Below, one piece after another: positions 2,131-23,375 of a stretch of 23,375 nt of DNA (the first letter of the stretch is position 1; the number at the start of each line of letters is the position of its first letter). Source of the DNA: a virus; the IMG/VR virus record IMGVR_UViG_3300017987_000371, positions 1 to 23,375 of that record, one strand, 5' to 3'. The translations under genes were made by a program, and so were the position numbers. The notes beneath the pieces were generated by a model. The model searched no databases. It saw only the letters and a list, made by a program, of their open reading frames with translations, and was not told the DNA's origin.

Positions 2131-2141
2131 GAGGCGATACG

Positions 2142-2423: not shown

Positions 2424-2440
2424 ACAAAGGAGCTCGAGCG

Positions 2441-2719: not shown

Positions 2720-2720
2720 A

Positions 2721-4025: not shown

Positions 4026-4027
4026 TC

Positions 4028-5029: not shown

Positions 5030-5044
5030 AAAGGAGGGGCAACT

Positions 5045-6133: not shown

Positions 6134-6154
6134 GCCGAGAAAGGAGCCGGAGCA

Positions 6155-6457
6155 ATGGCGAAGAAGAAGAAAGCAGCGAAGCCGGCGAAGGTAGCGACGA
6201 AGAAGGCCGAGGCGAAAATCGAGAAACCGATCGAGCCGACGCCGACACCGGAGCCCGTTCCGGCTCCCGAGCCGGCCACCAAGGCGCCGAAGTCCGAAAG
6301 ATGGGTCGTCGCAAAGGGTCACGTCATATCCGGCCGGAGAGGCCTTCTCGAGGCCGGCGACGACGTAACCCCGGAACTAGTACACCCGCTCGAGGAGCAA
6401 GCTCTTAAGTCGTTCGAGATGCTCAAGGCTCGAGGGCTCATCGTTCCGGCTTCGTAA
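6155..6457 (+). CDS. Lys/Pro/Ala-rich head-tail region protein of unknown function
   Basis: The 100-aa protein has two parts. Residues 1-48 are low complexity: a Lys/Ala-rich start (MAKKKKAAKPAKVATKKAEAK) followed by a Pro/Glu/Thr stretch. Residues 49-100 form a small folded-looking domain (WVVAKGHVISGRRGLLEAGDDVTPEL, ending MLKARGLIVPAS). AAAGGAG precedes the ATG. Its place just after the capsid gene matches small connector or capsid-associated proteins. The basic tail could contact DNA or the acidic head interior, but this is speculation. Confidence 0.8.
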   Translation: MAKKKKAAKPAKVATKKAEAKIEKPIEPTPTPEPVPAPEPATKAPKSERWVVAKGHVISGRRGLLEAGDDVTPELVHPLEEQALKSFEMLKARGLIVPAS

Positions 6458-6475
6458 ATGTAGGTAGGGATCACT

Positions 6476-6853
6476 ATGGGCATTAGAGAGACGGCCGCGG
6501 CCGACATAAAAGCGATACTCGAGGATAAAACAACCGGCTTCGGTTGGGATATTACCTTGACTTCTCCGAGCAACGTGTCGGCCGCGTTCGTCGGCTTTTC
6601 GACGGATGTCTATCGAGAGTATGACGACGACGATCGACTTGTCAGTCTTCGAGCTGCCTCTATTGCCCTTAGTACCCTTTCTCTCACCGCGGCCGGGATG
6701 GCTCTCCCGGAAGGAATACACTCGGAGACCTCGAGGCCTTGGGTCGTCGAGTTCGCCGACATCGAAGGGAACGCGGGAAAGTTCAAAGTCAAAGAATCAA
6801 ATCCAGACCGGGCCGCCGGTGTTGTGGTGTGCCACCTCGAGGAGTACAAGTAA
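6476..6853 (+). CDS. Probable head-tail connector/tail attachment protein
   Basis: This 125-aa protein lies between the capsid gene and the tail-completion gene, where lambda carries FII and Mu carries small neck genes. It begins with a helical segment (ETAAADIKAILEDKTTG), followed by beta strands (WDITLTSPSNVSAAFVGFSTDVYREYDDDD) and a typical strand-turn ending (GNAGKFKVKESNPDRAAGVVVCHLEEYK), consistent with a small beta-barrel joining protein. GTAGGG upstream of the ATG is a moderate ribosome binding site. Its stop codon directly abuts the next ATG, so the two are probably translationally coupled. The exact family is not identified. Confidence 0.72.
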   Translation: MGIRETAAADIKAILEDKTTGFGWDITLTSPSNVSAAFVGFSTDVYREYDDDDRLVSLRAASIALSTLSLTAAGMALPEGIHSETSRPWVVEFADIEGNAGKFKVKESNPDRAAGVVVCHLEEYK

Positions 6854-9176: not shown

Positions 9177-10682
9177 ATGCCAATTAGTACGGCAGTTGAT
9201 CCGAGCGCAGTCGCGAGAGTGCTCGGAATCAAGGAACAGTACGTGGACCTTCGAGGCGGCGCGGTGGTCTATCTCCCTCAACGAGTCGCGGTCTTCGGTC
9301 AAGGTAGTTCTTCGGTAACGTACTCGACGACGAAGTACCAGCCGGCCGGACACGTCGAAGTGGCCGAGAAATACGGATGGGGATCTCCGCTTCACCTTAT
9401 GGTGAAGGAGCTCCTTCCCGACAACGGAGACGGAGTCGGCCTCAATCCAGTGACGGTGTACCCGCTCGCCGAGCCGGGCACTTCGGCGCCGGCGACAATC
9501 GACGTCGCTCCGACCGGAACGGCGACGGCAAACGGAACCTTTCGACCGTATATCAACGATATACCGGGAGAGTCCTTCGTCATCCGCAAAGGCGAAGCCC
9601 CGGCGACGTACGCACCGAACATCGCCGCGGCCATCAACGCGAATACTTCGCTTCCCGTCACCGCGGCCGAAGCGGCGGCGGTGGTCACTTGTACTTCGAA
9701 ATGGGAAGCCGACACCGCAAACGGGATCAACATTCGATTTGATGGCCCGACCGACATCGGAGTCGACCTCACCTCGACGGTGATTACCCATAACAACGAC
9801 GGCGCGGGAACTCCCGACGTTACCGCGGCCATCGCTCAGATCGGCAACGTTTGGGAGTCGATGCTCATCAACTCGAATCTCTACACCGACACGACGACTC
9901 TCGACGAGTTCGAAACCTTCGGTGTCGGCCGATGGGGACCGGTTACGAAAAAGCCTTTGATGGTGTTCACGGGAGCCACCGAAGCGACTCGAGCGACTAT
10001 GGTCGCCGCCGGCGACGCACGGAGAACCGACCGAGTCAACTCGATTCTCAACGCTCCGGGCTCCGACGGGCTCCCGTTCATGTTCGCGGCGCGATGTGTC
10101 GCTCGAGCGGCGAAGCTCGCCGGCTCGAACCCACCGTTCGATTATGCGAGACAGAAAATCGATACCATCGAGCCGGGCACCGACGCTGAACAATGGGATG
10201 GAACGAGCCGAGAGATCGCAGTCAAGGCCGGGATTTCGACTATCACCGTCGAAGACGGTGTGATCTATATGTCGGATACGGTCACCACGTATCACCCGAG
10301 TGGAGTCGAAAATCCCCCGTATCGGTATGTAGTGGACATCGTCAAGTTGCAAAACGCGATCTTCAATTTGAACCTGTTGCTCGACGTTCCGAAGTATGAC
10401 GGAGCTCCTCTCATTCCCGACGACGAGTTCGCACCGGAGAACCCTTCGGCCATCAAGCCGAAAGACATCAAAGGTGTCGTGTATGGATGGGTCGACGGGC
10501 TCGCCGACGCGGCGATCGTGGTCGATCGGGATTGGATCAAGGATACCGTCGTTTGCCAGATTAGCTCAACGAACCCGAAGCGGTGCGATGTTTCGGTGAC
10601 ACTGAAACTCGTCGGAAATTCCAACATAATCTCCGTGGATCTGAACTGGGGATTTTACTTCGGCGGCGCCGTAGCGGCCTAG
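9177..10682 (+). CDS. Contractile tail sheath protein, Mu gpL type
   Basis: The 501-aa protein follows AAGGAGG and precedes the tail tube gene, the invariant sheath-tube order. The N-terminal part has RVLGIKEQYVDLRGGAVVYLPQRVAVFGQG, typical of Mu-like sheaths. The middle carries an Ala-rich insert-like domain (FVIRKGEAPATYAPNIAAAINANTS). The C-terminal half contains the conserved fold region (WESMLINSNLYTD, RWGPVTKKPLMVFTG, MFAARCVARAAKLA) and ends in beta strands (VTLKLVGNSNIISVDLNWGF). Sheath subunits polymerise around the tube and contract to drive it through the envelope. Confidence 0.92.
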   Translation: MPISTAVDPSAVARVLGIKEQYVDLRGGAVVYLPQRVAVFGQGSSSVTYSTTKYQPAGHVEVAEKYGWGSPLHLMVKELLPDNGDGVGLNPVTVYPLAEPGTSAPATIDVAPTGTATANGTFRPYINDIPGESFVIRKGEAPATYAPNIAAAINANTSLPVTAAEAAAVVTCTSKWEADTANGINIRFDGPTDIGVDLTSTVITHNNDGAGTPDVTAAIAQIGNVWESMLINSNLYTDTTTLDEFETFGVGRWGPVTKKPLMVFTGATEATRATMVAAGDARRTDRVNSILNAPGSDGLPFMFAARCVARAAKLAGSNPPFDYARQKIDTIEPGTDAEQWDGTSREIAVKAGISTITVEDGVIYMSDTVTTYHPSGVENPPYRYVVDIVKLQNAIFNLNLLLDVPKYDGAPLIPDDEFAPENPSAIKPKDIKGVVYGWVDGLADAAIVVDRDWIKDTVVCQISSTNPKRCDVSVTLKLVGNSNIISVDLNWGFYFGGAVAA

Positions 10683-10697
10683 AAAGGAGGCTCTAAA

Positions 10698-11081
10698 ATG
10701 CCAGCAATTGGAGGCAGTCCGGAAACAGTCTCTCTCGACGGTCGTGAGTTCACGTGGACCGAAGACAGTGACATTAATCGAAGCCTAGGCGGGTACACGA
10801 ACACCGTTCTTCAAAACGGCGACGGCTCGTCTCGGCTCATCACAAACCGGAAGGGATGGCGGCTCGAAGGTGGCTCAATCGTTATCGACAATGCGAAAAA
10901 CGATCAAGAGTACATCGAAACGCTAATCGCTTCGAAGCGCTTTTTTAACGTCGTCGTGACGTACGCCGGCCCGGTGAGCTACGCCGGGAAGGGACAGATC
11001 GAAGGTGACGCGAACTTCGCGAATCAGACGGCAAGTATGCCGATCACTCTCGCGGGAACCGGGCAGTTGAAAAAGCTGTAA
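10698..11081 (+). CDS. Tail tube protein, Mu gpM type
   Basis: The 127-aa protein directly follows the sheath gene after AAAGGAGG. It is beta-rich with the pattern of contractile-tail tube subunits: VSLDGREFTWTEDSDINRSLGGYTN at the start, a central RKGWRLEGGSIVIDN strand, and VTYAGPVSYAGKGQIEGDANFANQTASMPITLAGTG at the end. These subunits stack as hexamers to form the inner tube through which DNA passes. Length is typical of the family. Confidence 0.9.
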   Translation: MPAIGGSPETVSLDGREFTWTEDSDINRSLGGYTNTVLQNGDGSSRLITNRKGWRLEGGSIVIDNAKNDQEYIETLIASKRFFNVVVTYAGPVSYAGKGQIEGDANFANQTASMPITLAGTGQLKKL

Positions 11082-11096
11082 AGGATCGGGGCTTGT

Positions 11097-11142
11097 GGCG
11101 ACGTCGGTACGCTCCGACCTTTACCAGCGATGGGGCGTCGCC
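11097..11142 (+). promoter_or_regulatory. Structured leader ahead of the tail assembly chaperone gene
   Basis: GGCGACG (11097-11103) pairs perfectly with CGTCGCC (11136-11142). Inside are TCGG/CCGA (11104-11107 with 11114-11117) and CCA-GCGA-TGG (11124-11133), the latter with a GNRA-type tetraloop. Together they could form a three-way junction. The structure ends 8 nt before the AAAAAGGAG ribosome binding site of the next gene. There is no U-run, so it is not an obvious terminator. It could set the translation level or serve as an mRNA processing site between highly and weakly expressed genes. The pairing is seen; function is inferred. Confidence 0.4.
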
Positions 11143-11146
11143 GCTT

Positions 11147-11170
11147 TAAAAAGGAGCAAACGAAAATGAC
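11147..11170 (+). repeat. 24-nt direct repeat, copy 1: ribosome binding site plus start codon
   Basis: An exact 24-nt block containing AAAAAGGAG, a 9-nt spacer, the ATG and the next two bases is shared with 19483-19506. The two copies start unrelated genes, so similarity of the proteins cannot explain it. Confidence 0.85.
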
Positions 11171-11603
11171 AAGCGAAGTGAAAACACTAGATCTCGAAAA
11201 TAAAGTCGACGAAGAATCTATCGACACGGAATTCGAGCGATTCATCGAAATGAACGACATCGACCTCGACACCGAAGGTCTCGACGACAACACTCGCCGA
11301 GACATCGAAGCCGACATTCGGAAGGTCAAGAGAGGGATCAAAGACGGCCGTATTACCATCGACGACAAAGGTCACGCGACGGTACACCCGAGAGTTAGCA
11401 AGGATCAAAAGCCTATCACTTTTGGGTATCTCACAGGCAACGCGTGGATGGAATCCGACCGGAAGAAGGGTCATCAAGACGTGCAAAAACAGTTCGCCGT
11501 TATGGGCGCTTGTTCCCGTCGTTCGGTGGCTCACTTCGGGGCCCTTCGTCAAGGGGATTTGAAGTACTGTCAAGCGGTGTTCTCGCTTTTAGCGGATCTG
11601 TAG
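11166..11603 (+). CDS. Tail assembly chaperone, short form (Mu gp41 position)
   Basis: The 145-aa protein lies between tail tube and tape measure, the conserved position of tail assembly chaperones. It is acidic at the start (LDLENKVDEESIDTEFERFIEMNDIDLDTEG) and mostly helical, with a basic C-terminal half. The ATG at 11166 is chosen because AAAAAGGAG stands 9 nt upstream; an in-frame ATG at 11130 lies inside the leader structure. Chaperones of this type coat the tape measure protein before the tube polymerises, and are usually made with a longer form by ribosomal frameshifting; see the entry at 11591. Confidence 0.8.
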   Translation: MTSEVKTLDLENKVDEESIDTEFERFIEMNDIDLDTEGLDDNTRRDIEADIRKVKRGIKDGRITIDDKGHATVHPRVSKDQKPITFGYLTGNAWMESDRKKGHQDVQKQFAVMGACSRRSVAHFGALRQGDLKYCQAVFSLLADL

Positions 11604-11812
11604 TCATCGAGCTAGTTCGAGAGGGTCAGCTCGGCCTGATACCTTACGAACAAAGAACGAGGTTCAACGTGTATAGAGAGATGTTAATTCAAATTTGTCG
11701 GCTCTATCCGTCGTTACCGCCGGTTCGTTCTTTGACTACAGACGAGATCAAGTTTTTCTATCGGGGAATAGTTCCCGAGCTCAAACAAGCGACGAAGCCG
11801 AGGTCGAATTAA
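11591..11812 (+). CDS. Probable -1 frameshift extension of the tail assembly chaperone
   Basis: After the stop of the short form, the -1 frame is open to TAA at 11810-11812 and encodes a protein-like stretch (VIELVREGQLGLIPYEQRTRFNVYREM, YPSLPPVRSLTTDEIKFFYRGIVPEL). It has no credible ribosome binding site of its own. Joining it to the short form by a -1 shift gives a 215-aa long form ending exactly where the tape measure gene begins (TAATG). The best slip candidate by eye is the CTT-TTA codon pair at 11586-11591, but it is not a textbook X XXY YYZ heptamer. Frameshifted chaperone pairs are widely conserved in long-tailed phages, so the arrangement is expected, while the exact site is uncertain. 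Confidence 0.6.
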   Translation, partial: SGSVVIELVREGQLGLIPYEQRTRFNVYREMLIQICRLYPSLPPVRSLTTDEIKFFYRGIVPELKQATKPRSN

Positions 11813-13503
11813 TGCCAGGCCGCAAGAACATAGTTTTAAAAGCCGTTTTCCGAGGCGTCGATCGGATGTCTCGAACCGTCTCGAAGATGGGCCGAAAATT
11901 GAAACGATTCGGAGCGGCCGGCCGTCGCACCATGAAGCGCTTAAACCGGGCTATAAACCGCGTTGGAATGGCCCTTGCCACTGGCCTTAAAGCTGGGTTT
12001 ATCGCCGCGACGGTGGCTCTCGCTGGCCTTGCGGTGGTCATTGGGAGAGTTGCCGGGCAAATGGACAAGCTCGCCAAGCAATCCAAGCGGCTCGATTTCC
12101 CGATCGAAGAATTACAGCAATGGCAATTTGTAGCCCAACAAGCTGGATTGACGACCGAAGAGTTCTCGAAGGGGCTCGACACCTTCTCGAAGACGGTCGG
12201 AGAGGCGAAGCTCGGCCAGGGCGCCCTAACAACGATGTTGAAACGAAACGACCCGGCGTTCTTGAAACAGCTCAAAAACACGAAAGATACATCGGAGGCC
12301 TTCGACCTTTACATCAAAAAGATGCAATCGATCGACGATCCTCAAAAGAGAATGGCGTTCGGAGCTCTCGCCTTCGGTCGAGCCGGGAAGAAGCTCGGGA
12401 ACATTGCAACGCTTACCGCCGACGAGATCGCGAAGCTCAAAAAAGAGATGCTCGACAATGGTATCGTCACCGCCGAGCAAGCGAAGGCCGCCGAGAATTT
12501 TAACGACGCCATGAACTCGATGAAACTTCGAGTTATGGGCTTTTTATATGAGGCTCTCGGGCCGCTCCTTCCGGAGCTCACGAAAGTACTTCGAGAGGTT
12601 AGGGCTTGGACGGTCGAGAACAAGGAGCTCATCAAGACGAAAGTGATCGACTTCGTCAAGAAGCTCGTTCAAGGAGCCAAAGACTTCTATCAATGGCTCA
12701 TAAAGTTTAACGACCAATACAAGCCGATCGAGAAGATCGGGAAAGCGCTCGAGGTGGTCGGTAAATTGATGAATTGGGTCGCCGACAATCCCGACAAGGT
12801 CAAGGCCATCGGAACGGCCTTTCTCGTCGCCGCGGCGGCGATCAAGGTATTCACCGCGGCCTTGACAGTGGCGAGCGCAGTCGCGGCCGCTAACCCGCTT
12901 GTACTAGCCTTTGCGGCGGCCGTCGTCGGAGTCGGAGCGGCCGTCGTTCAAATTATCCGCTATTGGGATGAATTGAAGATCGCGTTCGGTTGGTTATGGG
13001 ATGACATCAAGAGCATATTCACAGACGGAATAGGTAAAGTTCTCAACCCGATCGCGTTCCTTGTTAGTTCAGTGAAAGACATTAAAGCGGCGTGGGATCC
13101 GACAAAGGGATTTTTCGAAAACCTATGGAATTCTATAGTCGCTGTTTTTGAAGGGGCTTACAATTCGATAGAAGACTTTGTTTCGCGTATCGTAAATACT
13201 GTAAAATCTCTTCGCCTGAAAGATCTCTTTCCATCTCATAAAAACCCACTCGGGCTAGTGGGAAAGCTCGCCATGGATTTTGTAACGAATAGCGGAGGCG
13301 GGGTAACCACCGACGGCGGCGGCGCGACCGTGCTCCCGTCGACGGTCTCTCCCGAGCAGCTCATGGGCCGAAGTATCGAAGAGAAGGTGTCGACTAACAA
13401 GACGGTTCTAGAGATCAAGACACCTCCGGGCACTTCGGCCGAGGTTACCGGGCAAGAAGGAACTAACGAAGGCCTCACGATTCAAACCTCGGGGGGTGCA
13501 TAA
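11812..13503 (+). CDS. Tail tape measure protein
   Basis: The ATG at 11812 overlaps the TAA of the chaperone extension, and GAGG precedes it; this gives 563 aa. The first 50 residues are very basic (GRKLKRFGAAGRRTMKRLNRAINR), followed by a hydrophobic segment (about 52-82). A long helical central region follows, then a second Ala/Val-rich hydrophobic segment (about 330-383), Trp-rich repeats (YWDELKIAFGWLWDDI, FFENLWNSIVAVFEG) and a Gly-rich end. This is the standard tape measure layout: it sets tail length and may form a channel in the membrane. At roughly 1.5 Angstrom per residue the tail would be about 85 nm, a short to medium contractile tail. Confidence 0.92.
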   Translation: MPGRKNIVLKAVFRGVDRMSRTVSKMGRKLKRFGAAGRRTMKRLNRAINRVGMALATGLKAGFIAATVALAGLAVVIGRVAGQMDKLAKQSKRLDFPIEELQQWQFVAQQAGLTTEEFSKGLDTFSKTVGEAKLGQGALTTMLKRNDPAFLKQLKNTKDTSEAFDLYIKKMQSIDDPQKRMAFGALAFGRAGKKLGNIATLTADEIAKLKKEMLDNGIVTAEQAKAAENFNDAMNSMKLRVMGFLYEALGPLLPELTKVLREVRAWTVENKELIKTKVIDFVKKLVQGAKDFYQWLIKFNDQYKPIEKIGKALEVVGKLMNWVADNPDKVKAIGTAFLVAAAAIKVFTAALTVASAVAAANPLVLAFAAAVVGVGAAVVQIIRYWDELKIAFGWLWDDIKSIFTDGIGKVLNPIAFLVSSVKDIKAAWDPTKGFFENLWNSIVAVFEGAYNSIEDFVSRIVNTVKSLRLKDLFPSHKNPLGLVGKLAMDFVTNSGGGVTTDGGGATVLPSTVSPEQLMGRSIEEKVSTNKTVLEIKTPPGTSAEVTGQEGTNEGLTIQTSGGA

Positions 13504-14880
13504 ATGTCATTCAGTACCCTAGGCGCCGACGTTCTCGCCGCTCTCGGCCTCGGAGGTGAATACGAAGACTCGGAGGGATGGAACACTCGACTTCTTCCCG
13601 CGGCATATCAGCCGAGTACCGTGCACGGGCTCACCGGTGTCGACGGAGGGCCCTTTAAGCTCACCTTCCAGTATGAAGACCTCGAGAAGACTTTCGGCCG
13701 TCACAGCTCCGTACACGAATTCTCAGAGGCCGGGAACGCGTACGTTCAACAGTTCGGCAAGATGGGCCAACGGTTCCCCATGAGAATGTACCTTTGGGGC
13801 GCCGATGTCGATACGATGGCCGCCGGCTTCGAGACTCTTCTCGGGCTCTCCGGAATCGCGACGCTCGAGCATCCAATGTACGGGCCGAAACAAGTGATAC
13901 CCGTAGGTGAGATCGTACGGAGAGACAATCTCGTCACCGCGGCGAATCAAGTCATCTTTGACGCGACATTCGTCGAGACGACCGGGCTCATCTATCCGGC
14001 CGAACAAGTCGACGCACAATCCGAGATCGCGAACGCTCTCGGAGCTCTCCTCGCCGCTCAGGCCGCTCAACTCGCTCAACAGCTCGATCTTGCCTCTCCG
14101 CTCGACGGCCTCGGATTTCTCGACAGTATTCAAAACACCCTCGGGAGTGTCGTCGCCGCGACGAACGTCATTCAAGACGCGGCTCTCGGATTTCAACAAG
14201 AATTCGACGACACTTTGAACCTGTTGAGCTCGGCGGCCGGTGGTATCACCGCGACGGGAAGCCTCGCGAGTGAAACACTCGACGCCGTCATCTCGAGTAC
14301 TCAAACATTCATCGGGAACGGCTCGAACTCGAGTCTTCCACCGACCGAAGTTTCGGCGGCCTATTTCTCGATTTTGAGCTCGATTTACACCGGCGTTATA
14401 GACATAAACGACACCCAAAGCATCAACGACTTTCATACGAACGAGATGACGGCCGGAGCTTCAATCGGTTCGGTAGCAAAGAACGCGGCGAACGCTCGTT
14501 TCAACACTCGAAACGAAGCGCTCGACTCGGCTCTCGACTTGATGGATCAGCTCAACGCTTACGCAACTTGGGCCGACGGCCTTTATTCTGACCTCGACGC
14601 GAACGGGCCCGGCGCCGGGAACGTCGATCTAGGGTACGGCTTTCAGGCACTAGTAAAGCTCGTCGGGCTCACCGCGGGGTACTTGGTCGACCTCTCGTTC
14701 TCGTTGAAACAGGAGCGGAGAATCGTTCTAACGTATCCGAGAACGCCTATCGACCTTTGCGCCGAGCTTTACCCCGGGCTCGTCGACGACAATCTCGACT
14801 TTTTCATCGCTTCGAACAACCTGTTAGGCCGCGAAGTTCTAGAAATCCCGAAGGGGAGAGAGATCAAGTACTACGTATGA
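13504..14880 (+). CDS. Mu gpN-like tail/DNA circularisation-type protein
   Basis: This 458-aa gene abuts the tape measure stop. Its first 160 residues carry the features of the Mu gpN/DNA circularisation N-terminal family: a strand with GGPFKLTFQYEDLEKTFGRHSSVHEF, then YVQQFGKMGQRFPMRMYLWG (interrupted by variable positions) and LEHPMYGPKQVIPVGEIVRRDNL. The remainder is helical and Ala/Ser-rich. In Mu this protein belongs to the baseplate-tail hub region; the name circularisation reflects an old annotation. The stop overlaps the next start (ATGA). Its place between the tape measure and gpP-like gene agrees with the Mu order. Confidence 0.85.
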   Translation: MSFSTLGADVLAALGLGGEYEDSEGWNTRLLPAAYQPSTVHGLTGVDGGPFKLTFQYEDLEKTFGRHSSVHEFSEAGNAYVQQFGKMGQRFPMRMYLWGADVDTMAAGFETLLGLSGIATLEHPMYGPKQVIPVGEIVRRDNLVTAANQVIFDATFVETTGLIYPAEQVDAQSEIANALGALLAAQAAQLAQQLDLASPLDGLGFLDSIQNTLGSVVAATNVIQDAALGFQQEFDDTLNLLSSAAGGITATGSLASETLDAVISSTQTFIGNGSNSSLPPTEVSAAYFSILSSIYTGVIDINDTQSINDFHTNEMTAGASIGSVAKNAANARFNTRNEALDSALDLMDQLNAYATWADGLYSDLDANGPGAGNVDLGYGFQALVKLVGLTAGYLVDLSFSLKQERRIVLTYPRTPIDLCAELYPGLVDDNLDFFIASNNLLGREVLEIPKGREIKYYV

Positions 14881-15932
14881 GCGAAAAAGTCACCATAGCG
14901 ATCGACGGGGCCCGATTTGGGCAGTGGGAAGATCTCTCGATAACTCGCTCGTACGACACTTTCGACACGGCCTCATTCAAGGCGCCATTTGATTCGGAGA
15001 ATCCAGCTCACCGGGAGAAGTTCGAGCCGTACAAGTTTCCAGCGATTACCATTGACACCGAGACCGAAGAGATCCCTAGAGAGGCGATGGTCACCGGAAC
15101 GATGTTGACTCCTATCCCGAACGACGACGTCGACCGGTCGACACTTGATGTTTCTTGCTATTCGAAGCCGGGAGAGCTCAACGACAATAATACAAGGGTC
15201 GACCACTGGACACCGCGTTACAAAAACCAAACGATCGATGTTATCGCCGAAGACATTTGTGAGCCTTTCGGGATCGGTGTTCAAATGCTTGTCGACGTCG
15301 CCGAGATTCCGGAGTTCAAAAACGTCGCGTACGCTATCACGGACAATCCGCTCGGCTTTTTGATAGGGCTCGCGAGACAAAGAGACCTCCTTACGGCCTC
15401 GGATGTCGACGGGAATCTTGTCTTCCAACGGCAAACCGATCTAGGCTCTCCGGTGGCGAAGCTCGAGAAGGGTGTATCTCCGCTCAAGTCGTTTCGGATG
15501 TCTTCGAACGTGCAAGGCTTCAAAAGCATAGTAACGGCCTTCAAAAAGGCGAGAGCCGGGAACGCGGCCGGGAACTACTACTCGACTCTGAATCCATTCG
15601 TAACAGACCTGGATACGCCTTACAGGCCGCAAAATATCACCCTAGGGGATGCAAGGGGCGCCGACGCACAAGAAGGTTCTCTCGCCGCCTACAAGCGCAT
15701 GATTGCAAATCTATGCACGTACACCGCGACGGTCATCTCATGGCGAGACAAGACCGGGGCCCTTTGGACACCGAACACGACGATTAAGATCAAGGCACCG
15801 CGATCGATGGTGTATGACTTTTACGAGTTTTTGATTCGGTCGGTAACTTTTAACAAGTCGGCCAACGTCGAGACGGCGACGCTCACTCTCGGGATTCATG
15901 GCGACGCGGAGGCTTTACCATGGTCGAGCTAG
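14877..15932 (+). CDS. Baseplate hub protein, Mu gpP (gp44) type
   Basis: Starting at the ATGA overlap (14877) gives 351 aa; an in-frame ATG upstream at 14757 lies inside the preceding gene. The N-terminus (VTIAIDGARFGQWEDLSITRSYDTFDTASF) is the typical hub opening. A middle region with TIDVIAEDICEPFGIGVQ and FLIGLARQRDLLTASDVDGNLVF is the classic gp27/gpP-like domain, and the protein ends in beta strands. The trimeric hub joins tail tube and central spike. Its 3' end overlaps the spike gene by 13 nt. Confidence 0.9.
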   Translation: MSEKVTIAIDGARFGQWEDLSITRSYDTFDTASFKAPFDSENPAHREKFEPYKFPAITIDTETEEIPREAMVTGTMLTPIPNDDVDRSTLDVSCYSKPGELNDNNTRVDHWTPRYKNQTIDVIAEDICEPFGIGVQMLVDVAEIPEFKNVAYAITDNPLGFLIGLARQRDLLTASDVDGNLVFQRQTDLGSPVAKLEKGVSPLKSFRMSSNVQGFKSIVTAFKKARAGNAAGNYYSTLNPFVTDLDTPYRPQNITLGDARGADAQEGSLAAYKRMIANLCTYTATVISWRDKTGALWTPNTTIKIKAPRSMVYDFYEFLIRSVTFNKSANVETATLTLGIHGDAEALPWSS

Positions 15933-16432
15933 GACGAGTCAAAGGCCTCGAGGCGGCCACCGACGACGGAGACAAGACTCTCGAGGTGACGGCTACCACC
16001 GCGGACCCGGAAGAAATAGAAGGTTCTCAGGCTTCGCCGGCCGGCTTCGACGGTCAACCGTTGAACGACGATCTCGCCGTAGCGGTAAAGGCTCCCGGTC
16101 AAGGTCAATGGGTCATTGTCGGCTACCTGGATTTAAAGAACGGGAGCGGAGTCGCTCAAGGTGAATCAAGACAGTACTCGAGAGACGCCGACGGAAATAT
16201 CGTTTTTTCGATACATCTCAAAGCCGACGGAACCGCGGAGATCGGCGGCTCGGCCGATACGGCCGTCGGCTTCTCAACCCTGAACACCGAGTTCGAGAAG
16301 CTCAAGACGGAGATAATGACGAATCTCGCGGCCATTGCGACCGGGCTCGCGGCGGTGCCTTATACGTACGTACCGACGGCGCTCACTGCCTCACTGGCCG
16401 GCGCCGAGAAAGCGACGGTCAAGCTGCCATGA
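15920..16432 (+). CDS. Baseplate spike/puncturing protein, Mu gp45 type
   Basis: The 170-aa gene begins inside the hub gene; GGAGG (15908-15912) lies 7 nt before its ATG. It starts VELGRVKGLEAATDDGDKTLEVTATT, then AVKAPGQGQWVIVGYLD and a repetitive beta region (FSIHLKADGTAEIGGSAD), as in gp45-like spikes with an OB-fold followed by a beta helix. The C-terminus is an amphipathic helix (LNTEFEKLKTEIMTNLAAIATGL) rather than a metal-binding HxH tip, so the membrane-piercing apex may differ from P2/Mu or be supplied elsewhere. The stop overlaps the next start (ATGA). Confidence 0.82.
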   Translation: MVELGRVKGLEAATDDGDKTLEVTATTADPEEIEGSQASPAGFDGQPLNDDLAVAVKAPGQGQWVIVGYLDLKNGSGVAQGESRQYSRDADGNIVFSIHLKADGTAEIGGSADTAVGFSTLNTEFEKLKTEIMTNLAAIATGLAAVPYTYVPTALTASLAGAEKATVKLP

Positions 16433-17010
16433 CCACTTACGGAAACATCAAGATAGCTCGAGGAGACCTCAAGATTACTTGTACTCCCGACGGCGGAGAG
16501 ATTACCGTCGGCGGCGGCGAAACCGAGATGGATGTCTTTCTCTATACGGCCTGTTATCTCTCGATGTTCGGTGGCAACGAAGACGACTCCGGCGGAGACG
16601 ACGAGACTTATTCATGGTGGGGCAACCGAGACGAGCTCGACACCGCGAAACAATACCGAAGCCGAACGCAGTTTTTGATCCGAACGCTTCCGGCGAACTC
16701 GACGAACATTAAGCGAATCGAAGAAGCCGTAAAACAAGATCTGCAATGGATACTCGACGAGCGAATCGCAAACGAGATCAGCGTCGGCGCACAAATGGTG
16801 CAGCCGAAACGTATTCGAATCATTATTGTTATCCGCGCCGAAGGCGAGCTAAAGACGTTCGAGTTCGTCGAGAATTGGCTCGCCATGGCCGAAGAGTTCG
16901 GTCGACAGGTATTACCGCCGGCCGACGAAGAAGACTATTTGATAACAGACCCACCGGGAAGCGAGTTTATACGAGATGACTCGTCGAGCGAGTACTTGAT
17001 AGAAGGGTAA
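16429..17010 (+). CDS. Baseplate wedge protein, Mu gp46 type
   Basis: The 193-aa protein overlaps the spike gene by four bases. It opens with strands (YGNIKIARGDLKITCTPDGGE), then MDVFLYTACYLSMFGG, an acidic loop containing a WW pair (TYSWWGNRDEL) and a conserved-looking helix-strand unit (NIKRIEEAVKQDLQWILDERIANEI, KRIRIIIVIRAEGELKTFEF). This is the pattern of gp46-like proteins, the Mu counterpart of the T4 gp25-type wedge subunit that links sheath and baseplate. Position between gp45-like and gp47-like genes supports the call; here a fibre gene has been inserted before gp47. Confidence 0.85.
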   Translation: MTTYGNIKIARGDLKITCTPDGGEITVGGGETEMDVFLYTACYLSMFGGNEDDSGGDDETYSWWGNRDELDTAKQYRSRTQFLIRTLPANSTNIKRIEEAVKQDLQWILDERIANEISVGAQMVQPKRIRIIIVIRAEGELKTFEFVENWLAMAEEFGRQVLPPADEEDYLITDPPGSEFIRDDSSSEYLIEG

Positions 17011-17015
17011 GAACC

Positions 17016-19271
17016 ATGTCAAAAAGACATTCAATTGTAGGAACGGGATCAAGACACGCGTTACACAATTTCGAGTACGCCGACGCGACGGCTCGGCTCG
17101 CGGCGAGCGGATTCCTCGCCGAGAACTTGTATCAAATCGCAAAACAAGACGACGATGATTCCCTTTGGATGTTAACGGGGATCGGCCCGGCGACTTGGCT
17201 CGAGATTCAAACGGGGGTTGGCACCGGTGTTTGGTCAAGAGCCGGAACGATTCTCTCACCGACCACTTCCGGCGACACTGTCCAGGCCGGAGACGGGACG
17301 CTAGGGCAGCCATCCTACGCCTTTCAAGGAGATGTCGACACCGGCTTTCGGCTTCCGTCGGTTGGCGAAATCGGTGTCGTAATTGCCGGCGCTCAACAGG
17401 CGAAATTCGACGCGACCGGGCTCGACATCGACGGAGCGATTACCCTCGGAACGGGAACTTCGGTCGATGAAATCTCTACCGATGGCTCATTATCGGCGGC
17501 GACCGACGACCTTCTGTACACCGGACTTGCTGTAAAAACCTATTGCGACAATCTGCTCGAGACGAATGACGCTCTCGTTTTCAAAGGCGTTATTGATTGC
17601 TCTACGAATCCCGATTATCCGGCCGCCAATAAGGGTCATACCTACAAGGTGAGCGTCGCCGGGAAAATCGGCGGTGCGTCGGGAGAGAACGTCGAGATCG
17701 GTGATACTCTTTACTGTATCGTTGATAGTTCCCCCTCCGGAGACCAAGCAACAGTGGGATCCAATTGGTGTATTGTTCAAACGAACATCGACGGGGCAGT
17801 CATCGGGCCGAGCTCGGCCGTCGACAGGTCGATCGCTCTCTTCGACGGGACAACCGGCAAGCTAATACAGGATTCCATCCCTACTATCGATTCCAGCGGC
17901 CGAATAAGGGTCGGGACCGGAACCGAAGGTAACCCCGAAATCTCTTTCGTAAGTGATGTAGATACGGGCATTTGGAGAACTGGAACGAACAATTTCCGAT
18001 TTGTCGCGGGCGCGACGTCCATTGCAGGTATCAGCTCCGCAGGCCTCACGATGTACGATGGTCAGATCCTTGCCTTAGACGGAACGGTTGCGGCCCCGTC
18101 GTATTCTTTCGTGACACAGCAGAATACAGGGATCCGGCTGTTTTCCAGGGGCGGTGGCAACTACGACATGATCTTTCAGAACGCTGGCACGACGCGCCTG
18201 GAAATCAGCGCCATAACCCCACACGTTTCTGTGAACGGTAACTTCAGTGTCCTGGGTGACATTGACGGGTACGATTGCGCCCTGTCTGGATACCTACAAC
18301 TCACCAATGGCGGCACGATCCAGACAACGCTGAATGGAGACATCACACTCGATCCAAATGGTACAGGCCTTGTTCGAATTGGTAATACTGGTACACCTGG
18401 AAGATCTCCAAAGTTTTACACCGATCAAACCGTTGAATTTGATGGGGTTGTGTATTCTGATAATGCTTTCACGGCTAACCGGATTTACATCGGCAGTAGT
18501 AGTTATATGCAGATTCAAACGGTCACCGACGATGGGACTCACTTTGGTATAGGCAATGTCAGCGGAGGCGGAAACAGACATCTTATTTTTTGCGATCGCG
18601 ACTGGGTCCTTAGGGACTTCGACCACGACACACAGAGCGCAAATCCAACAATTTTTATACATTCGGTCACAGACCCAAATATCAGCAACACCGAATGGGG
18701 CTCGCTGCTTTACAATGCCGCCACCAAGGAGTTCAGGATTGGGGCGGGCGAGGGCGCGATCTATGCAACCGCCGCTTTTCGGCCATGGGTCCGAATCACA
18801 TCCGAGATGACCGGGCTTAGTCCTGATAACGGATGGATGATATACAATAGTGACTATCAGAAACCATGGTACTACAACGGCACTACATGGCAAGTGAGCG
18901 GGGAGACTATCCAGCTACAAAATCGTTCCGGGGGAACGAGAGTCGCCGGTGACGTTGTCATTATTGATACTGGTAACGCGAAAGCCGTTACTACTACAAC
19001 TTTATCTTTTAATGAACTTTGCACCGGTGTGGTTGTTATCGGCGGAGCGAACCTCGCACAAATGACGATAGCATATTCTGGAATTTGGCCGGTCAAGGTT
19101 ACCGGGGCGGTATCTATTGGGGATTCCCTGTGTACTTCTACGACGGCAACCCGCGCTTATGCACCCGGCACTACTGGCGAATTTGGACAAATGGCGAGGG
19201 CTTTGGAAGCGAATGCAAGCGGCACCGCCACAATAGACGCTCGAATCGGATGCGTTTCGGAGGTTTTCTAA
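17016..19271 (+). CDS. Large tail fibre with shared N-terminal anchor and mosaic receptor-binding region
   Basis: The 751-aa protein has an N-terminal anchor (residues 17-64) like that of the spike encoded at 7594. Three repeats of a beta unit with a D-TG-R or NTG-R core follow at about residues 95-140 (YAFQGDVDTGFR), 302-347 (FVSDVDTGIWR) and 352-398 (YSFVTQQNTGIR). Between the first two is a segment with HTYKVSVAGKIGG and DTLYCIVDSSPSGD. The C-terminal 120 residues (LQNRSGGTRVAGDVVIIDTGNA to ATIDARIGCV) form a separate Gly/Thr-rich beta domain. From about 17930 to 18900 the base and codon use departs sharply from the rest of the window, as if the receptor-binding part had been exchanged. 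A GAAGGG lies before the start. Confidence 0.85.
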   Translation: MSKRHSIVGTGSRHALHNFEYADATARLAASGFLAENLYQIAKQDDDDSLWMLTGIGPATWLEIQTGVGTGVWSRAGTILSPTTSGDTVQAGDGTLGQPSYAFQGDVDTGFRLPSVGEIGVVIAGAQQAKFDATGLDIDGAITLGTGTSVDEISTDGSLSAATDDLLYTGLAVKTYCDNLLETNDALVFKGVIDCSTNPDYPAANKGHTYKVSVAGKIGGASGENVEIGDTLYCIVDSSPSGDQATVGSNWCIVQTNIDGAVIGPSSAVDRSIALFDGTTGKLIQDSIPTIDSSGRIRVGTGTEGNPEISFVSDVDTGIWRTGTNNFRFVAGATSIAGISSAGLTMYDGQILALDGTVAAPSYSFVTQQNTGIRLFSRGGGNYDMIFQNAGTTRLEISAITPHVSVNGNFSVLGDIDGYDCALSGYLQLTNGGTIQTTLNGDITLDPNGTGLVRIGNTGTPGRSPKFYTDQTVEFDGVVYSDNAFTANRIYIGSSSYMQIQTVTDDGTHFGIGNVSGGGNRHLIFCDRDWVLRDFDHDTQSANPTIFIHSVTDPNISNTEWGSLLYNAATKEFRIGAGEGAIYATAAFRPWVRITSEMTGLSPDNGWMIYNSDYQKPWYYNGTTWQVSGETIQLQNRSGGTRVAGDVVIIDTGNAKAVTTTTLSFNELCTGVVVIGGANLAQMTIAYSGIWPVKVTGAVSIGDSLCTSTTATRAYAPGTTGEFGQMARALEANASGTATIDARIGCVSEVF
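17930..18900 (+). other. Compositionally distinct segment inside the fibre gene
   Basis: Counting by eye, TCGA occurs about 3 times in 18050-18890 but about 15 times in the equally long 17041-17880. The segment uses AAT, GGT, CTG and ACA codons freely, whereas the surrounding phage genes favour CTC, GTC, TCG and GAG before a following G or GA. The boundaries are approximate. The reading frame stays open, so the change reflects exchange of a protein segment rather than gene decay. Confidence 0.6.
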
Positions 19272-19272
19272 A

Positions 19273-19419
19273 ATGGCGTACAATAACTACAAATCGATAT
19301 GGAAAGATATTGTTGACAATGCCGGCACAGATCTGGCCGACATCATCGCGGCACTGCAAACAACAGCTTGTTTTTTTCAGTTTTTGTCAATGAGAGACTG
19401 GACAAGAGCCCGATCGTGA
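19273..19419 (+). CDS. 48-aa protein directly downstream of the fibre gene
   Basis: GGAGG (19259-19263), inside the end of the fibre gene, lies 9 nt before this ATG, which is one base after the fibre stop codon. The product begins MAYNNYKSIWKDIVDN, continues as an amphipathic helix (AGTDLADIIAALQTT) and ends FLSMRDWTRARS. Small proteins directly behind fibre genes can be fibre chaperones or accessory adhesin pieces, but I recognise no family. A run of seven T (19371-19377) sits in the codon phase needed for -1 slippage, which would replace the last 13 residues with 16 others. The ribosome binding site and tight spacing are the main support. Confidence 0.55.
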   Translation: MAYNNYKSIWKDIVDNAGTDLADIIAALQTTACFFQFLSMRDWTRARS

Positions 19420-19436
19420 GTGGATGATAACTCCGG

Positions 19437-19501
19437 CTTGACGTCGGATCAAAAGACATATGTCAAGGGTAAAATACCAACCTAAAAAGGAGCAAACGAA
19501 A
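19437..19501 (+). promoter_or_regulatory. Second structured leader, related to the one at 11097-11165
   Basis: CTTGAC (19437-19442) and GTCAAG (19462-19467) are inverted repeats, and between them lies the palindrome GACATATGTC (19455-19464, partly overlapping). As in the earlier leader, the sequence begins GGCTTG followed by ACGTCGG, then the pairing region, then AAAAAGGAG and the start codon. The half sites CTTGAC/GTCAAG also form the palindrome over the -35 box at 136-150. It may be a control element copied from one leader to the other; no function is proven. Confidence 0.35.
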
Positions 19502-19506
19502 ATGAC
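19483..19506 (+). repeat. 24-nt direct repeat, copy 2
   Basis: This block is identical to 11147-11170 and includes the ribosome binding site, the spacer and the ATG of the Lys-rich coiled-coil gene. The two copies are about 8.3 kb apart. Confidence 0.85.
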
Positions 19507-19762
19507 GAAAGCAACGAAGAAAAAGAAACCGGTAGCGAAGAAGGTCACTCCGATCAAGTCGGCGAAGAAGGCCGCGGCGGCGAAGAAGGCCGCGCCGACG
19601 GCCGAAGGCAAGCTCGCCGAGCTCCGGGCTTCGCTCGACAATTTGAACAAAGCTCATCAGCAGCACGCCGGCCAACTACAAGCAATCGAGCAACAAATCT
19701 TGATGACACAAGGAGCGATACAAACGCTCGAGGAGCTTTCCGGGGCAAAGAAAGACGGCTAG
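19502..19762 (+). CDS. Lys/Ala-rich coiled-coil protein of unknown function
   Basis: The ATG at 19502 lies 9 nt after AAAAAGGAG and gives 86 aa; another in-frame ATG at 19460 lies in the leader. Residues 1-35 are Lys/Ala-rich (TKKKKPVAKKV, SAKKAAAAKKAAPTAEG), similar in composition to histone H1 tails. Residues 36-80 are predicted coiled coil (LAELRASLDNLNKAHQQHAGQLQAIEQQILMTQGAI) with heptad-like leucines and glutamines. Three bases separate it from the gp47-like gene. It could bind nucleic acid or bridge fibre and baseplate components. I recognise no family. Confidence 0.72.
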   Translation: MTKATKKKKPVAKKVTPIKSAKKAAAAKKAAPTAEGKLAELRASLDNLNKAHQQHAGQLQAIEQQILMTQGAIQTLEELSGAKKDG

Positions 19763-19765
19763 AAA

Positions 19766-20911
19766 ATGCGAACGATCTCCGAGGTAAACACCGCGATAAT
19801 TAGCCAGCTCGAGCTAGAGCTCAATAAGGTCTTACCGCTCTTTCCGAAGGCCGCGAATCGCGTTATCTCGAAGATGCTCGCCGGCGCCTTTATCTTGCTC
19901 GGGAAGTACCTCGGGGTGTCGTTCTTCCAAATGTTCGTTGTTACCGCGACTTGGGAGCAAATCGAGATAGACGGGAAGTTCGTCAAGCCTCTCGAGCTTT
20001 GGGCCGACATCTTCGACGTCGGAGCTCCCATCGGCGACACTCACGCCGAGCTAGAGATCGAGATACCGACCACCGCGGCCGGCGACACCATCAAAGCGGC
20101 CTATCAGTTCCGGCACCGGCCGAGCGATTTAATTTACTTGTGTACGGCCGACACCGTCACCACAACGCCGACGACTACGGTTCCGGTACAATGTACCACC
20201 GGAGGCGAGATCGGCAACCTAGACGCCGGTGTCGGTGTTGTGCTCGAAGTGGTTGAGCCTCGGTCTTCGATAGCGGATTCGGGAACGGTGTCGGCTCTCA
20301 CTGTCAACGGTGCCGACGGAGACACAGAGAGTGTTTACCGTCAAAGGATACTGGACCGGGCAAAACTTCCGGCCGAAGGTGGGGCGCCTTACCATTATTG
20401 GACGTGGGCCACATCGGTAGACGGGATTCCGTACGCTTACCCGTACGTTTCGACCATCATTCCGACGGCCGTCGAGATATACGTCGACACCGAAGACGGT
20501 TCGGCACCGACGGCGGCTCAACTCACCGCGGTCGAGAACGCGGTCGAAGCCGAGCGGCCGGTGAGCGACAAAGTCGACGTCGCCGGAGTGACGTTCGTCT
20601 CTTTCGACGTCGAAGTTCGAGACCTAGATTCGAAGAATCTCAACGACGCGAAGACGAGAATAACGACGGTAATCAAGAATTACTTCCGGAGCCGAGAGCC
20701 GTTTATCGATGGCGTATCAAAGCTGCCAGCGAGAGACATTCTGTCATCGGGAGAAGTTCAAGGTCTTGTGATGGAAGAAGCGGCGAGAATCAACGCGACG
20801 CTTTCCGGTGTGTCTATCACCTTGGCGACGGTGCCGGTCGTTCTTTGGTACTTGGGCCGAGATAACCAAAACCGCGGGAAGAAGGTCACCGCGGCCGTCA
20901 CGTATCCCTAG
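19766..20911 (+). CDS. Baseplate J protein, Mu gp47 type (copy 1)
   Basis: The 381-aa protein has the gp47/baseplate J pattern: a helical start with PLFPKAANRVISKMLAGAFILLGK, then a beta-rich middle (ADTVTTTPTTTVPVQC, GNLDAGVGVVLEVVEP). The conserved DGDTESVYRQRILDRAKLPAEGGAPYHYWTWA-type block follows (about residues 179-212), and the C-terminal part ends in GVSITLATVPVVLW. These proteins form the wedge ring of the baseplate. There is no clear ribosome binding site, only TAGAAA before the ATG, so it may depend on coupling with the preceding gene. A paralogue begins at 22624. Confidence 0.9.
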   Translation: MRTISEVNTAIISQLELELNKVLPLFPKAANRVISKMLAGAFILLGKYLGVSFFQMFVVTATWEQIEIDGKFVKPLELWADIFDVGAPIGDTHAELEIEIPTTAAGDTIKAAYQFRHRPSDLIYLCTADTVTTTPTTTVPVQCTTGGEIGNLDAGVGVVLEVVEPRSSIADSGTVSALTVNGADGDTESVYRQRILDRAKLPAEGGAPYHYWTWATSVDGIPYAYPYVSTIIPTAVEIYVDTEDGSAPTAAQLTAVENAVEAERPVSDKVDVAGVTFVSFDVEVRDLDSKNLNDAKTRITTVIKNYFRSREPFIDGVSKLPARDILSSGEVQGLVMEEAARINATLSGVSITLATVPVVLWYLGRDNQNRGKKVTAAVTYP

Positions 20912-20920
20912 GAGGGTATT

Positions 20921-21742
20921 ATGTCAATGTGGAACATCTTCCGACATCTTCTCCCGAGGGCGCACGCGTGGCGGGTTTTTTTCGAAACACAGATTTATGA
21001 CTTCTTCAAGGGCTTAGGTCAAGCGATTGTAGACGACCCGATCTCCGAGAGCGACAAAACGACTCTAGGAGTGTTTCCGGAGTTCACCGAAGACCTTGAC
21101 GAGTACGAAGAGCAGTTCAACATCCTACCGGTCGAAGGCCTCACCGACGCCGAAAGAGCGGCCAGGATCGAGGCGGCCTGGAAAGCTATCGGAGGTCAAA
21201 GCCCTTCGTATATCCAAGGGGTACTTCAAAAAGCCGGCTTCGACTTGTACGTTCATGACTGGTACGATCCGAGCTACGTTCCCCCGCCGGTGCTTCCGGT
21301 CATCAAGGCCGAATGCGGAGAAACCCCGATGGAATGCGGCGAAGAGTTCGCCGAATGCGGAAACACCGAAGATCAAGGCATAGCGAGCGGCGAGGCCTGG
21401 AATCCGATAGACTATATCGTCACTCCCGGAGTCCCGTACAAGCTCTTAATCAACAAAGACTACACCGTGAGCGTCGACTTTTATGGGGAATGCGGCGAGC
21501 CTCTCGCCGAATGCGGCGAGCCTACGATGGAATGCGGGAACTATTCGGCCATCAATTACGACGAGACGCTCTTTTATATCGCTCCATACTTGTCGGCCTG
21601 GTACTATTATATATACATCGGATCACAAACTTTTATTAGCGCGGTGAACGTTCCGAGCGAGCGAGCCGACGAGCTCGAGGATCTCGTTCTAAGCTTGTGC
21701 CCGACTCACAAAAAGATCGTTTTATGTGTCAACTACACATAA
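20921..21742 (+). CDS. gp48/YmfQ-like tail protein with ECG heptad repeats
   Basis: The 273-aa protein follows gp47 as in Mu. Residues 1-115 (NIFRHLLPRAHAWRVFFE, FNILPVEGLTDAERAARIEAAW, SPSYIQGVLQKAGF) and the C-terminal PTHKKIVLCVNYT match the gp48/YmfQ layout of small baseplate-edge proteins. Between are two triplets of ECG spaced exactly seven residues apart: Cys132, 139, 146 and Cys191, 198, 205. Each triplet ends in ECGN. They could form a beta-roll-like ladder, disulfides or a metal site. TAGGAGGG, sharing the stop of the previous gene, gives strong initiation. Confidence 0.85.
   Translation: MSMWNIFRHLLPRAHAWRVFFETQIYDFFKGLGQAIVDDPISESDKTTLGVFPEFTEDLDEYEEQFNILPVEGLTDAERAARIEAAWKAIGGQSPSYIQGVLQKAGFDLYVHDWYDPSYVPPPVLPVIKAECGETPMECGEEFAECGNTEDQGIASGEAWNPIDYIVTPGVPYKLLINKDYTVSVDFYGECGEPLAECGEPTMECGNYSAINYDETLFYIAPYLSAWYYYIYIGSQTFISAVNVPSERADELEDLVLSLCPTHKKIVLCVNYT
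21311..21361 (+). repeat. ECG heptad repeat, triplet 1
   Basis: Three GAA-TGC-GG(A/C) units recur every 21 nt within the gp48-like gene and encode ECGETPM, ECGEEFA and ECG followed by Asn. The DNA units differ at third positions, so the repeat is kept at protein level. Confidence 0.8.
21488..21538 (+). repeat. ECG heptad repeat, triplet 2
   Basis: This second set of three units has the same 21-nt spacing (ECGEPLA, ECGEPTM, ECG followed by Asn). It lies 45 residues after the first set ends and has the same terminal ECGN. Confidence 0.8.
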
Positions 21743-21759
21743 GGGAAGGATAGAAAACA

Positions 21760-22620
21760 ATGGCAATCTCACCGAAAGACGTCTTCACCGGAAAAATCGA
21801 TATTTCCGACTTGATAAACTACCCGCTCGGGAAGGCGAGAGATGTCGCGGTAGCCGGAGACGGAACCGGAACGCCGTTCGTCGCCGCTCTCGTAAATGAC
21901 ATCTTTGGTTTGCAGCAGTGGCTACTGTCCAAGGCCGGGATCACTGCGAGCGGAACGAATGACGGGGCCGTAACTTCTCAATACGGCGACGCGATTCGAA
22001 AAATCTCGGGCTATCCAGGGAAAATGGATATAGTGACTTGGCCAACGATTCCGACCGGGCTCCGGGCCTTCTTTCTTGATGGCTCGATGGGGGCGACAGT
22101 ATCCGTCGCAACGTATCCCGATCTAGTTGCCGCCTCTTATGTCGGAGACGGAAACAACGCGGCCGCGCACGCCGCCGACGGTAAATTCTGCAAGACCTCC
22201 GACGCGGCCGGCCTCACTCCAAGTACATCGGGAGCCTACCTTACAATTCCCGATATGCGGTTTCGAGCTCCTCGAGGACTCGGCGGAGGCCGCTACATGG
22301 GCCACTACGAAGCCGATCAAGTTCAGTCGCATAACCACTTGATAGTCGACGTCACCGCGGCGGCCGGCGTTCAAGACGCCTACATCGGCGCTACGCTCTC
22401 CGGAACCGCCGGAACGATCGACGGCCTAGGCCATCCTCCGGCCGGCCCTACGCAGGCCAGGGGGGACGCGGTCGCCGATAACGACGAGATGGGAGAAGCG
22501 ATCGGAACTCATGGCGTCGCTCGACAGGATAGCACCGGCTCGACAATAACCGGTCATGGCCGAGTCGGAACCGAAACCCGAATGATGAACGTCGGGATCA
22601 AGTATATTCTTTGGTACTAG
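21760..22620 (+). CDS. Collar-type tail fibre/receptor-binding protein
   Basis: The 286-aa protein starts with a short attachment region (DVFTGKIDISDLINYPLGKARDVAVAGDGTGTPFVAALVNDIFG) common in short tail fibres. A collar-like domain (LRAFFLDGSM, ATYPDL, LTIPDMRFRAPRGLGGGRYMG) follows, then QVQSHNH (residues 187-193), a motif typical of T4 gp12/collar fibres whose His residues can bind metal, and a C-terminal TETRMMNVGIKYILWY typical of host-contact fibre tips. It probably forms trimeric short fibres. GGAAGGATAG precedes the ATG. Codon use is native, unlike the middle of the large fibre. Confidence 0.87.
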   Translation: MAISPKDVFTGKIDISDLINYPLGKARDVAVAGDGTGTPFVAALVNDIFGLQQWLLSKAGITASGTNDGAVTSQYGDAIRKISGYPGKMDIVTWPTIPTGLRAFFLDGSMGATVSVATYPDLVAASYVGDGNNAAAHAADGKFCKTSDAAGLTPSTSGAYLTIPDMRFRAPRGLGGGRYMGHYEADQVQSHNHLIVDVTAAAGVQDAYIGATLSGTAGTIDGLGHPPAGPTQARGDAVADNDEMGEAIGTHGVARQDSTGSTITGHGRVGTETRMMNVGIKYILWY

Positions 22621-22623
22621 ACA

Positions 22624-23375
22624 ATGAAGACCACCGAACAACTCCGAGAGCTTATAATCACGCAGATCGAAAACGAGATCGGTCAAGCTATACCCATCTT
22701 TCCGAAGGTGTTCTTTCGAGTGCTGGCTAAGGTGGTCGCCGCGGTCTTTATTCTGCTTTATAAACGCGTCGGCTTTTACGCGTTACAACGGTTCGTCAAG
22801 TCGGCTTCCTGGGATGAAATCGAGGTGAACGGGGTGCTCGTTCGGCCGCTCGTTCTTTGGGGGGAGCTCATCGGAGTCGGGCCGCCGAAGGTCGGAGTTC
22901 AGGCCGAGTACAATGTTCAGTTTACCCTCGAGGAGGGCGCCGAAGATCAATACTCGACCGGGATCAAAATGATGCACGAAGCATCGAAGATTATGTTCAA
23001 GACGGTCGAGTTCTTGAACACCACCGAGCGGCCGATTTGTAAAGTTCGAGCGTTTGCCGACACTCAAGGGAACGCCGGCGCCGGCGACCAAGGGAACTTG
23101 GCTCTCACCGAGATGACTCTCGTCAAGCCACCGGCCGGCCTCGGTAAAAAGGTCGATATGCTTCTTCAAACGAAGGAGGGATTTGACGCCGAGACCGAAG
23201 CCGAGTATCGAGAGAGAGTCGTCGAAGAGTACAAGGTTCGGCCGCAGGGGGGAGCCTACGTCGACTTTCGGAAGTGGGCTCTCGAAGTGCCTGGAATCGT
23301 CGAGGCGTACGTATACACCGGATATGTCGGAGAGGTCATTGTGTATATCGCCGACAACGACGGTTTACCAAGTGC
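22624..23375 (+). CDS. Baseplate J protein, Mu gp47 type (copy 2, cut by window end)
   Basis: An open frame runs from ATG at 22624 to the end of the window (250 full codons, no stop). Residues 1-88 align without gaps to the gp47-like protein at 19766: IPIFPK versus LPLFPK, FRVLAKVVAAVFILLYK versus NRVISKMLAGAFILLGK, and W63, EIEVNG, LVLWG. Further on, EAEYRERVVEEYKVRPQGGAYVDFRKWALEVPGIVEAYVY is the conserved gp47 block, and EVIVYIADNDG follows. The middle domains differ between the two. Like copy 1 it lacks a clear ribosome binding site (only TAGACA before the ATG). The rest of the gene lies outside the window. Confidence 0.88.
   Translation, partial: MKTTEQLRELIITQIENEIGQAIPIFPKVFFRVLAKVVAAVFILLYKRVGFYALQRFVKSASWDEIEVNGVLVRPLVLWGELIGVGPPKVGVQAEYNVQFTLEEGAEDQYSTGIKMMHEASKIMFKTVEFLNTTERPICKVRAFADTQGNAGAGDQGNLALTEMTLVKPPAGLGKKVDMLLQTKEGFDAETEAEYRERVVEEYKVRPQGGAYVDFRKWALEVPGIVEAYVYTGYVGEVIVYIADNDGLPS

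Follow-up and report, generated by a model that had tools for sequence, protein, structure and literature searches.

The DNA studied here raises the question of why a phage with a Mu-like tail should carry two genes for a baseplate wedge protein that such tails normally encode once, and of how two such proteins would be accommodated in one baseplate. The window, i.e., the whole stretch analysed, is the entire IMG/VR record IMGVR_UViG_3300017987_000371 (23,375 bases), and its + strand holds the structural genes of an uncultured contractile-tailed phage: head genes, then sheath, tube and tape measure, then gp43-, gp44-, gp46-, gp47- and gp48-type baseplate genes and fibres. Its sheath is 46–51% identical to those of the cultured phages Oceanospirillum vB_OsaM_PD0307, Vibrio 97.13 and Shewanella SppYZU01, and the same range holds for the Shewanella, Acinetobacter and Aeromonas phages compared below.

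Two J genes in one baseplate operon

An earlier sequence-only reading of the window had noticed two gp47-like baseplate J genes, here J1 and J2, flanking gp48 and a fibre gene, and this is confirmed by the open reading frames, which lie where that reading had placed them (products of 381 and 383 aa), by Pfam Baseplate_J (PF04865; 112.4 bits for J1 and 76.9 for the window part of J2, cut-off 21.1) and by matches of both proteins to PHROG 6. Judging by sequence and predicted fold, both represent the gp47-type wedge protein (BW2) of the Mu-type simple baseplate and are paralogues that parted long ago. The genes concerned are the following.

496-6853, + strand: portal, head protease, major head protein and head closure
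13504..14880, + strand: tube initiator/DNA circularisation protein, Mu gp43 type (Pfam DNA_circ_N 2.5e-9; PHROG 184 5.9e-34)
14877..15932, + strand: baseplate hub, Mu gp44 type (Pfam Gp44-like_2nd 7.4e-11; PHROG 177 1.9e-47; alignment); the frame as listed begins with TTG at 14757, the ATG at 14877 being the better start
15920..16432, + strand: spike position, Mu gp45 type by synteny only (PHROG 5226, unknown function, 4.3e-22)
16429..17010, + strand: gp46-type wedge protein (BW1), single copy (Pfam GP46 3.9e-7; PHROG 180 1.2e-19)
17016..19271, + strand: fibre-like gene between gp46 and J1, 751 aa, no Pfam match; residues 134–262 share 57% identity with a tail-fibre domain protein from Xanthomonas phage Rb1
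19460..19762, + strand: Lys/Ala-rich protein of 100 aa, probably coiled-coil (open reading frame list; Pfam matches low-complexity only)
19766..20911, + strand: J1, gp47-type wedge protein (BW2), at the usual site beside gp48 (Pfam Baseplate_J 3e-32)
20921..21742, + strand: gp48-type wedge protein (BW3), single copy (PHROG 203 6.1e-9; PHROG 4920 2.8e-35)
21760..22620, + strand: tail fibre with an N-terminal anchoring domain found family-wide; its N-terminal 80–100 residues are 45–60% identical to relatives' fibres adjoining J or gp48
22624..23375, + strand, complete in the second contig (L002:10001-11152): J2, second gp47-type wedge protein (Pfam Baseplate_J 2e-21, window part)

The gp48-type protein scores 21.5 bits against Pfam Mu_Gp48, under the cut-off of 37.4, and the gp48 family profile retrieves Mu gp48 (9ki1_a) at 1.4e-6. 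Like several of its cultured relatives it has repeated ECGE/ECGN-like motifs in two clusters, which could be metal- or disulphide-forming. Most relatives lack a fibre-like gene between gp46 and J; a distance of at least 3 kb between gp44 and J (median 1.0 kb) is also found in L058, L077, L195, L203 and L229.

A second contig, IMGVR_UViG_3300017989_000566 (L002/L004), matches window positions 10422–23375 at 99.98% and runs 5,174 bases beyond the window end. J2, for which the earlier reading had allowed a truncation just past 23375, is complete there as a 383-codon gene, the last of the tail operon, its 3′ end overlapping by 15 bases a convergent gene on the opposite strand. The product of that gene (L002:11138-11647, minus strand) weakly matches a phage metallopeptidase family (HELRH motif), and beyond J2 lie opposite-strand genes, a transglycosylase-like gene, a single-strand binding protein and a RusA-type resolvase. 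Assembly chimeras are a known hazard of metagenome contigs, and the two contigs could share source reads, but a junction of two phages is very improbable here: the second contig spans the whole J1–J2 region and 5 kb more, with 2 mismatches in 10,752 bases, and J1 and J2 are both intact with GC and GC3 resembling those of neighbouring genes, J2 equalling its neighbours in both.

The second contig also bears on two of the three functions that the sequence-only reading had offered. The gene order J–gp48–fibre–J would fit a second wedge ring or a duplicated baseplate arm, and a second gp48 and fibre had been proposed as what might follow J2; neither is found 3′ of J2 in the 5.2-kb extension, where opposite-strand genes follow instead, and with one gp46, one gp48 and no second hub we regard a second ring or arm as highly unlikely. 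A switchable adhesin cassette, exchanging J or fibre copies, is suggested by the position of the fibre between the two J genes, and is the least probable of the readings considered, since both J genes point in the same direction, no near-identical DNA common to the two copies and no border repeat were found, no long border-spanning inverted repeat was found in the region, no recombinase was matched among the scanned proteins, and the arrangement is identical in both contigs. The lack of near-identical shared DNA further implies that the duplication is old.

Both J genes were said to lack a clear ribosome binding site, and this holds: ahead of J1 there is no Shine-Dalgarno word of at least 3 bases and ahead of J2 just GGT, whereas AGGAGG precedes gp48. 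It is weak evidence, however: such a site is likewise missing from gp44, from the tape measure gene and from the gene at 11130, and the start codons of J1 and J2, each 3 bases past the stop codon of the preceding gene, suggest translational coupling to the genes upstream. Within the operon J1 precedes gp48, but is parted from gp46 by the fibre-like gene and the small gene; J2 sits after the fibre.

Occurrence and ancestry of the pair

In tblastn searches of cultured phage records J2 matched 128 and J1 142, each at one place per record, and none of these approximately 130–140 cultured relatives has a second full J; when the complete records of 12 relatives were scanned with Pfam Baseplate_J, each had a single J. 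A profile search of the fetched loci gave 168 distinct J loci related to these, of which 78 include 3.5 kb or more to either side of J; this virus apart, none of them has a second full J gene. Two candidates for two-J loci, L166 and L184, were rejected as single J genes broken in frame by frameshifts. One J per phage is thus the norm among the relatives, as had been claimed for the single gp47 of Mu-type tails.

Used singly as queries against IMG/VR, J1 and gp48 retrieved the overlapping contig only, and J2 the overlapping contig and one remote single-J contig, so that no close relative carrying the pair was found by these three queries. The family was reached by alignment scans, the loci being the best 80 of each viral scan; the J alignment scan was keyed on the motif R[PA][QL]GGA.DY, which is absent from J1, and gp48 and gp44 scans were added to counter this bias. 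With loci sampled through conserved motifs, the best 80 per scan, the results speak for the rarity of the pair and not for its uniqueness. It is seen in one virus, on two contigs differing at 2 sites, and a literature search lying mostly outside subscription journals gave no report of a phage with two J genes. One contig with the J of this phage type (L101, JAHWGK010000043.1) has been assigned to the MAG of a Thermoplasmata archaeon; as its J clusters among viral contigs, this is likely a binning error.

The two proteins are far apart. BLASTP of the window proteins aligns 80/250 identical residues (E 3e-39), and the full-length comparison, with J2 completed from the second contig, 111/375 (about 30%, E 8e-52). 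The sequence-only reading had described a gap-free N-terminal alignment, a divergent middle and a later block again alike, a pattern borne out by identities of 41% for J1 residues 1–90 (gap-free), 17% for 91–175 and 33% for 176–260. Broken down by predicted fold, the pair has identities of 0.40 (two long N-terminal helices, 1–62), 0.43 (link), 0.17 (beta domain, 91–180), 0.36 (middle domain) and 0.25 (C-terminal part), the means among other family members being 0.64, 0.58, 0.52, 0.66 and 0.50, respectively. J1 keeps 47/92 conserved family residues and J2 67/92. Complementary loss of conserved residues between the two was not found; 18 conserved positions are changed in both, against 12.2 expected, several of them to the same residue, and this excess points to shared ancestry rather than to a division of labour. 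The divergence ratio relative to the family is 0.65 and 0.69 for J1 and J2, and 0.73 and 0.81 for gp44 and gp48 of the same virus; the J proteins are thus the more diverged, as is expected of copies freed from having to do both jobs.

Among the relatives J adjoins gp48 in 175 loci, and the majority order is gp46, J, gp48, fibre; 26 loci have the order J, fibre, gp48, or at least enough space for it between J and gp48. L018, L019, L024, L048, L077, L085 and L091 are among these approximately 26 relatives, and in the loci inspected the gene between J and gp48 is usually the fibre. The fibre, intervening or adjacent, has a common N-terminal domain across the family, and gp48 proteins of J–fibre–gp48 loci score as a class distinct from that of J–gp48–fibre loci. 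By these class profiles gp48 of this virus clearly belongs to the J–gp48–fibre class (249 vs 163 bits for the other), J2 leans to the J–fibre–gp48 class (340 bits vs 321 with the J–gp48–fibre profile), and J1 is level (275 and 278).

The tree of J proteins proposed earlier places both in one neighbourhood, on long branches. A first tree grouped L014 with J2, on long branches; without L014, L010 and L003, J1 and J2 are sisters (95/84), the program warning of long branches, and when built separately both fall in one clade rich in J–fibre–gp48 contigs (SH-aLRT 95). We favour, tentatively because of the long branches, a duplication in the lineage of this virus, after which the copies diverged strongly, on top of a mosaic baseplate; that one J was acquired from elsewhere is the alternative origin, and the trees prove neither.

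Predicted folds and the seats of the wedge

In Mu, two gp47 chains, an inner and an outer conformer, share each wedge with one gp46 and one gp48. The N-terminal regions of the gp47 pair and gp48 form a three-helix bundle, the hub is contacted by the inner gp47, and adjacent wedges are linked by the grip of inner on outer chains (PMC11915804). The PDB entry for the Mu baseplate (9ki1) has 12 gp47 and 6 gp48 chains, and the (BW2)2–BW3 heterotrimer is common to Milano, T4 and R-type pyocin (PMC10811340). The present virus shares with the Mu-type baseplate the gene set gp43–gp44–gp45–gp46–J–gp48–fibre, a single gp46, a single gp48 and, by prediction, the gp47 fold in both J proteins; it differs in having two diverged gp47-type genes, not one, all other parts being single. 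Oceanospirillum vB_OsaM_PD0307, Vibrio 97.13 and VP16T, Shewanella SppYZU01 and SFCi1, Acinetobacter Scuro and Aeromonas AeroV_348 have the same structural order J–gp48–fibre, but these cultured myoviruses have one J, in most of them directly after gp46.

AlphaFold2 models of J1 and J2 have mean pLDDT values of 85.7 and 87.0, and the best structural match of both is chain H of Mu gp47 (9ki1_H: Z 18.2, 332 aligned, rmsd 11.1 for J1; Z 16.6, 327 aligned, rmsd 11.8 for J2). The two are predicted to share the gp47 fold of N-terminal helices, a beta domain and C-terminal alpha/beta domains, the high rmsd probably reflecting rigid domains set at different angles, as in a protein of several conformations. 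The matches do not discriminate between inner and outer seat, chain H being the best for both with little difference (VIA-align 2 lists).

With two BW2 genes, one gp46 and one gp48, the virus has the parts for one protein per seat of a 1:2:1 wedge. By analogy with the solved relatives, in which two copies of one BW2 occupy non-equivalent seats with their N-terminal helices bundled with one gp48, the likeliest reading is that J1 and J2 would split the inner and outer seats between them to give a J1–J2–gp48 heterotrimer, to which we give a probability of about one in two. Each of the six wedges would then be built from single copies of gp46, J1, J2 and gp48, with the inner J specialised on the hub contact and the outer J on the rim and the neighbouring wedge. 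The stronger form, in which the heterotrimer is obligate and duplication has split the BW2 seats between genetically separable paralogues, we hold to be slightly short of an even bet. Of the three functions first offered, the mixed wedge ring is the most plausible. Both genes are intact and both models match Mu gp47 over nearly the whole length, in support of the split; the resemblance between them is greatest in the bundle helices and the link, which in either protein would lie against the one gp48, and smallest in the beta domain and the C-terminal part; by analogy, the segments that distinguish the seats in known structures would be among the latter. Expression of both J genes, the heterotrimer and the seat of each J are what we infer.

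Against the seat split, J1, with about half of the conserved family residues lost, could be an accessory form. One J would then fill both seats as in the relatives and the other would be optional, for example letting the 751-aa second fibre dock; the better conservation of J2 and the place of that fibre-like gene, between gp46 and J1, agree with this. We nevertheless consider an accessory role rather unlikely: it is the less conserved J1 that lies next to gp48, as J normally does, the fibres of Mu attach to gp48 and not to gp47 (PMC11915804), and other relatives with a long gp44–J stretch (>2.8 kb) have a single J. Simple redundancy, with the copies mixing freely or one of them decaying yet still open, would suit a pair confined to one lineage and a much changed J1, but seems less probable still, in that two frames still intact along 380 codons at about 30% identity speak against unconstrained drift, and the fold is retained, with good confidence, in the predicted models of both.

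Two other systems help to place the J1–J2 pair. In the PLTS/eCIS of some Archaea, Cyanobacteria and Firmicutes, Baseplate J comes from two distinct genes (PMC4122934), a likeness at the level of gene count; these systems are without capsid or portal, while this virus has the head genes listed above, the portal gene among them. Two J genes as such have been reported before, and what appears new, by the literature searched, is the pair in a phage. The phage phiCD508 (PDB 9gb2, 9g8s) has one gp47-like protein, gp65 or Triplex 1a, a single sequence present as 24 chains in two entries and in several conformers between which the wing domain varies; there the difference between copies is conformational, here it is genetic.

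For baseplate specialists this matters because the wedge seats decide how fibre binding passes to hub and sheath; for others it is a modest variation. In the known simple baseplates the same protein sits in both seats, so that any mutation hits both. If J1 and J2 do divide the seats, each seat would be mutable on its own, and the phage would offer a natural case of a homomeric ring turned heteromeric inside a contractile tail.
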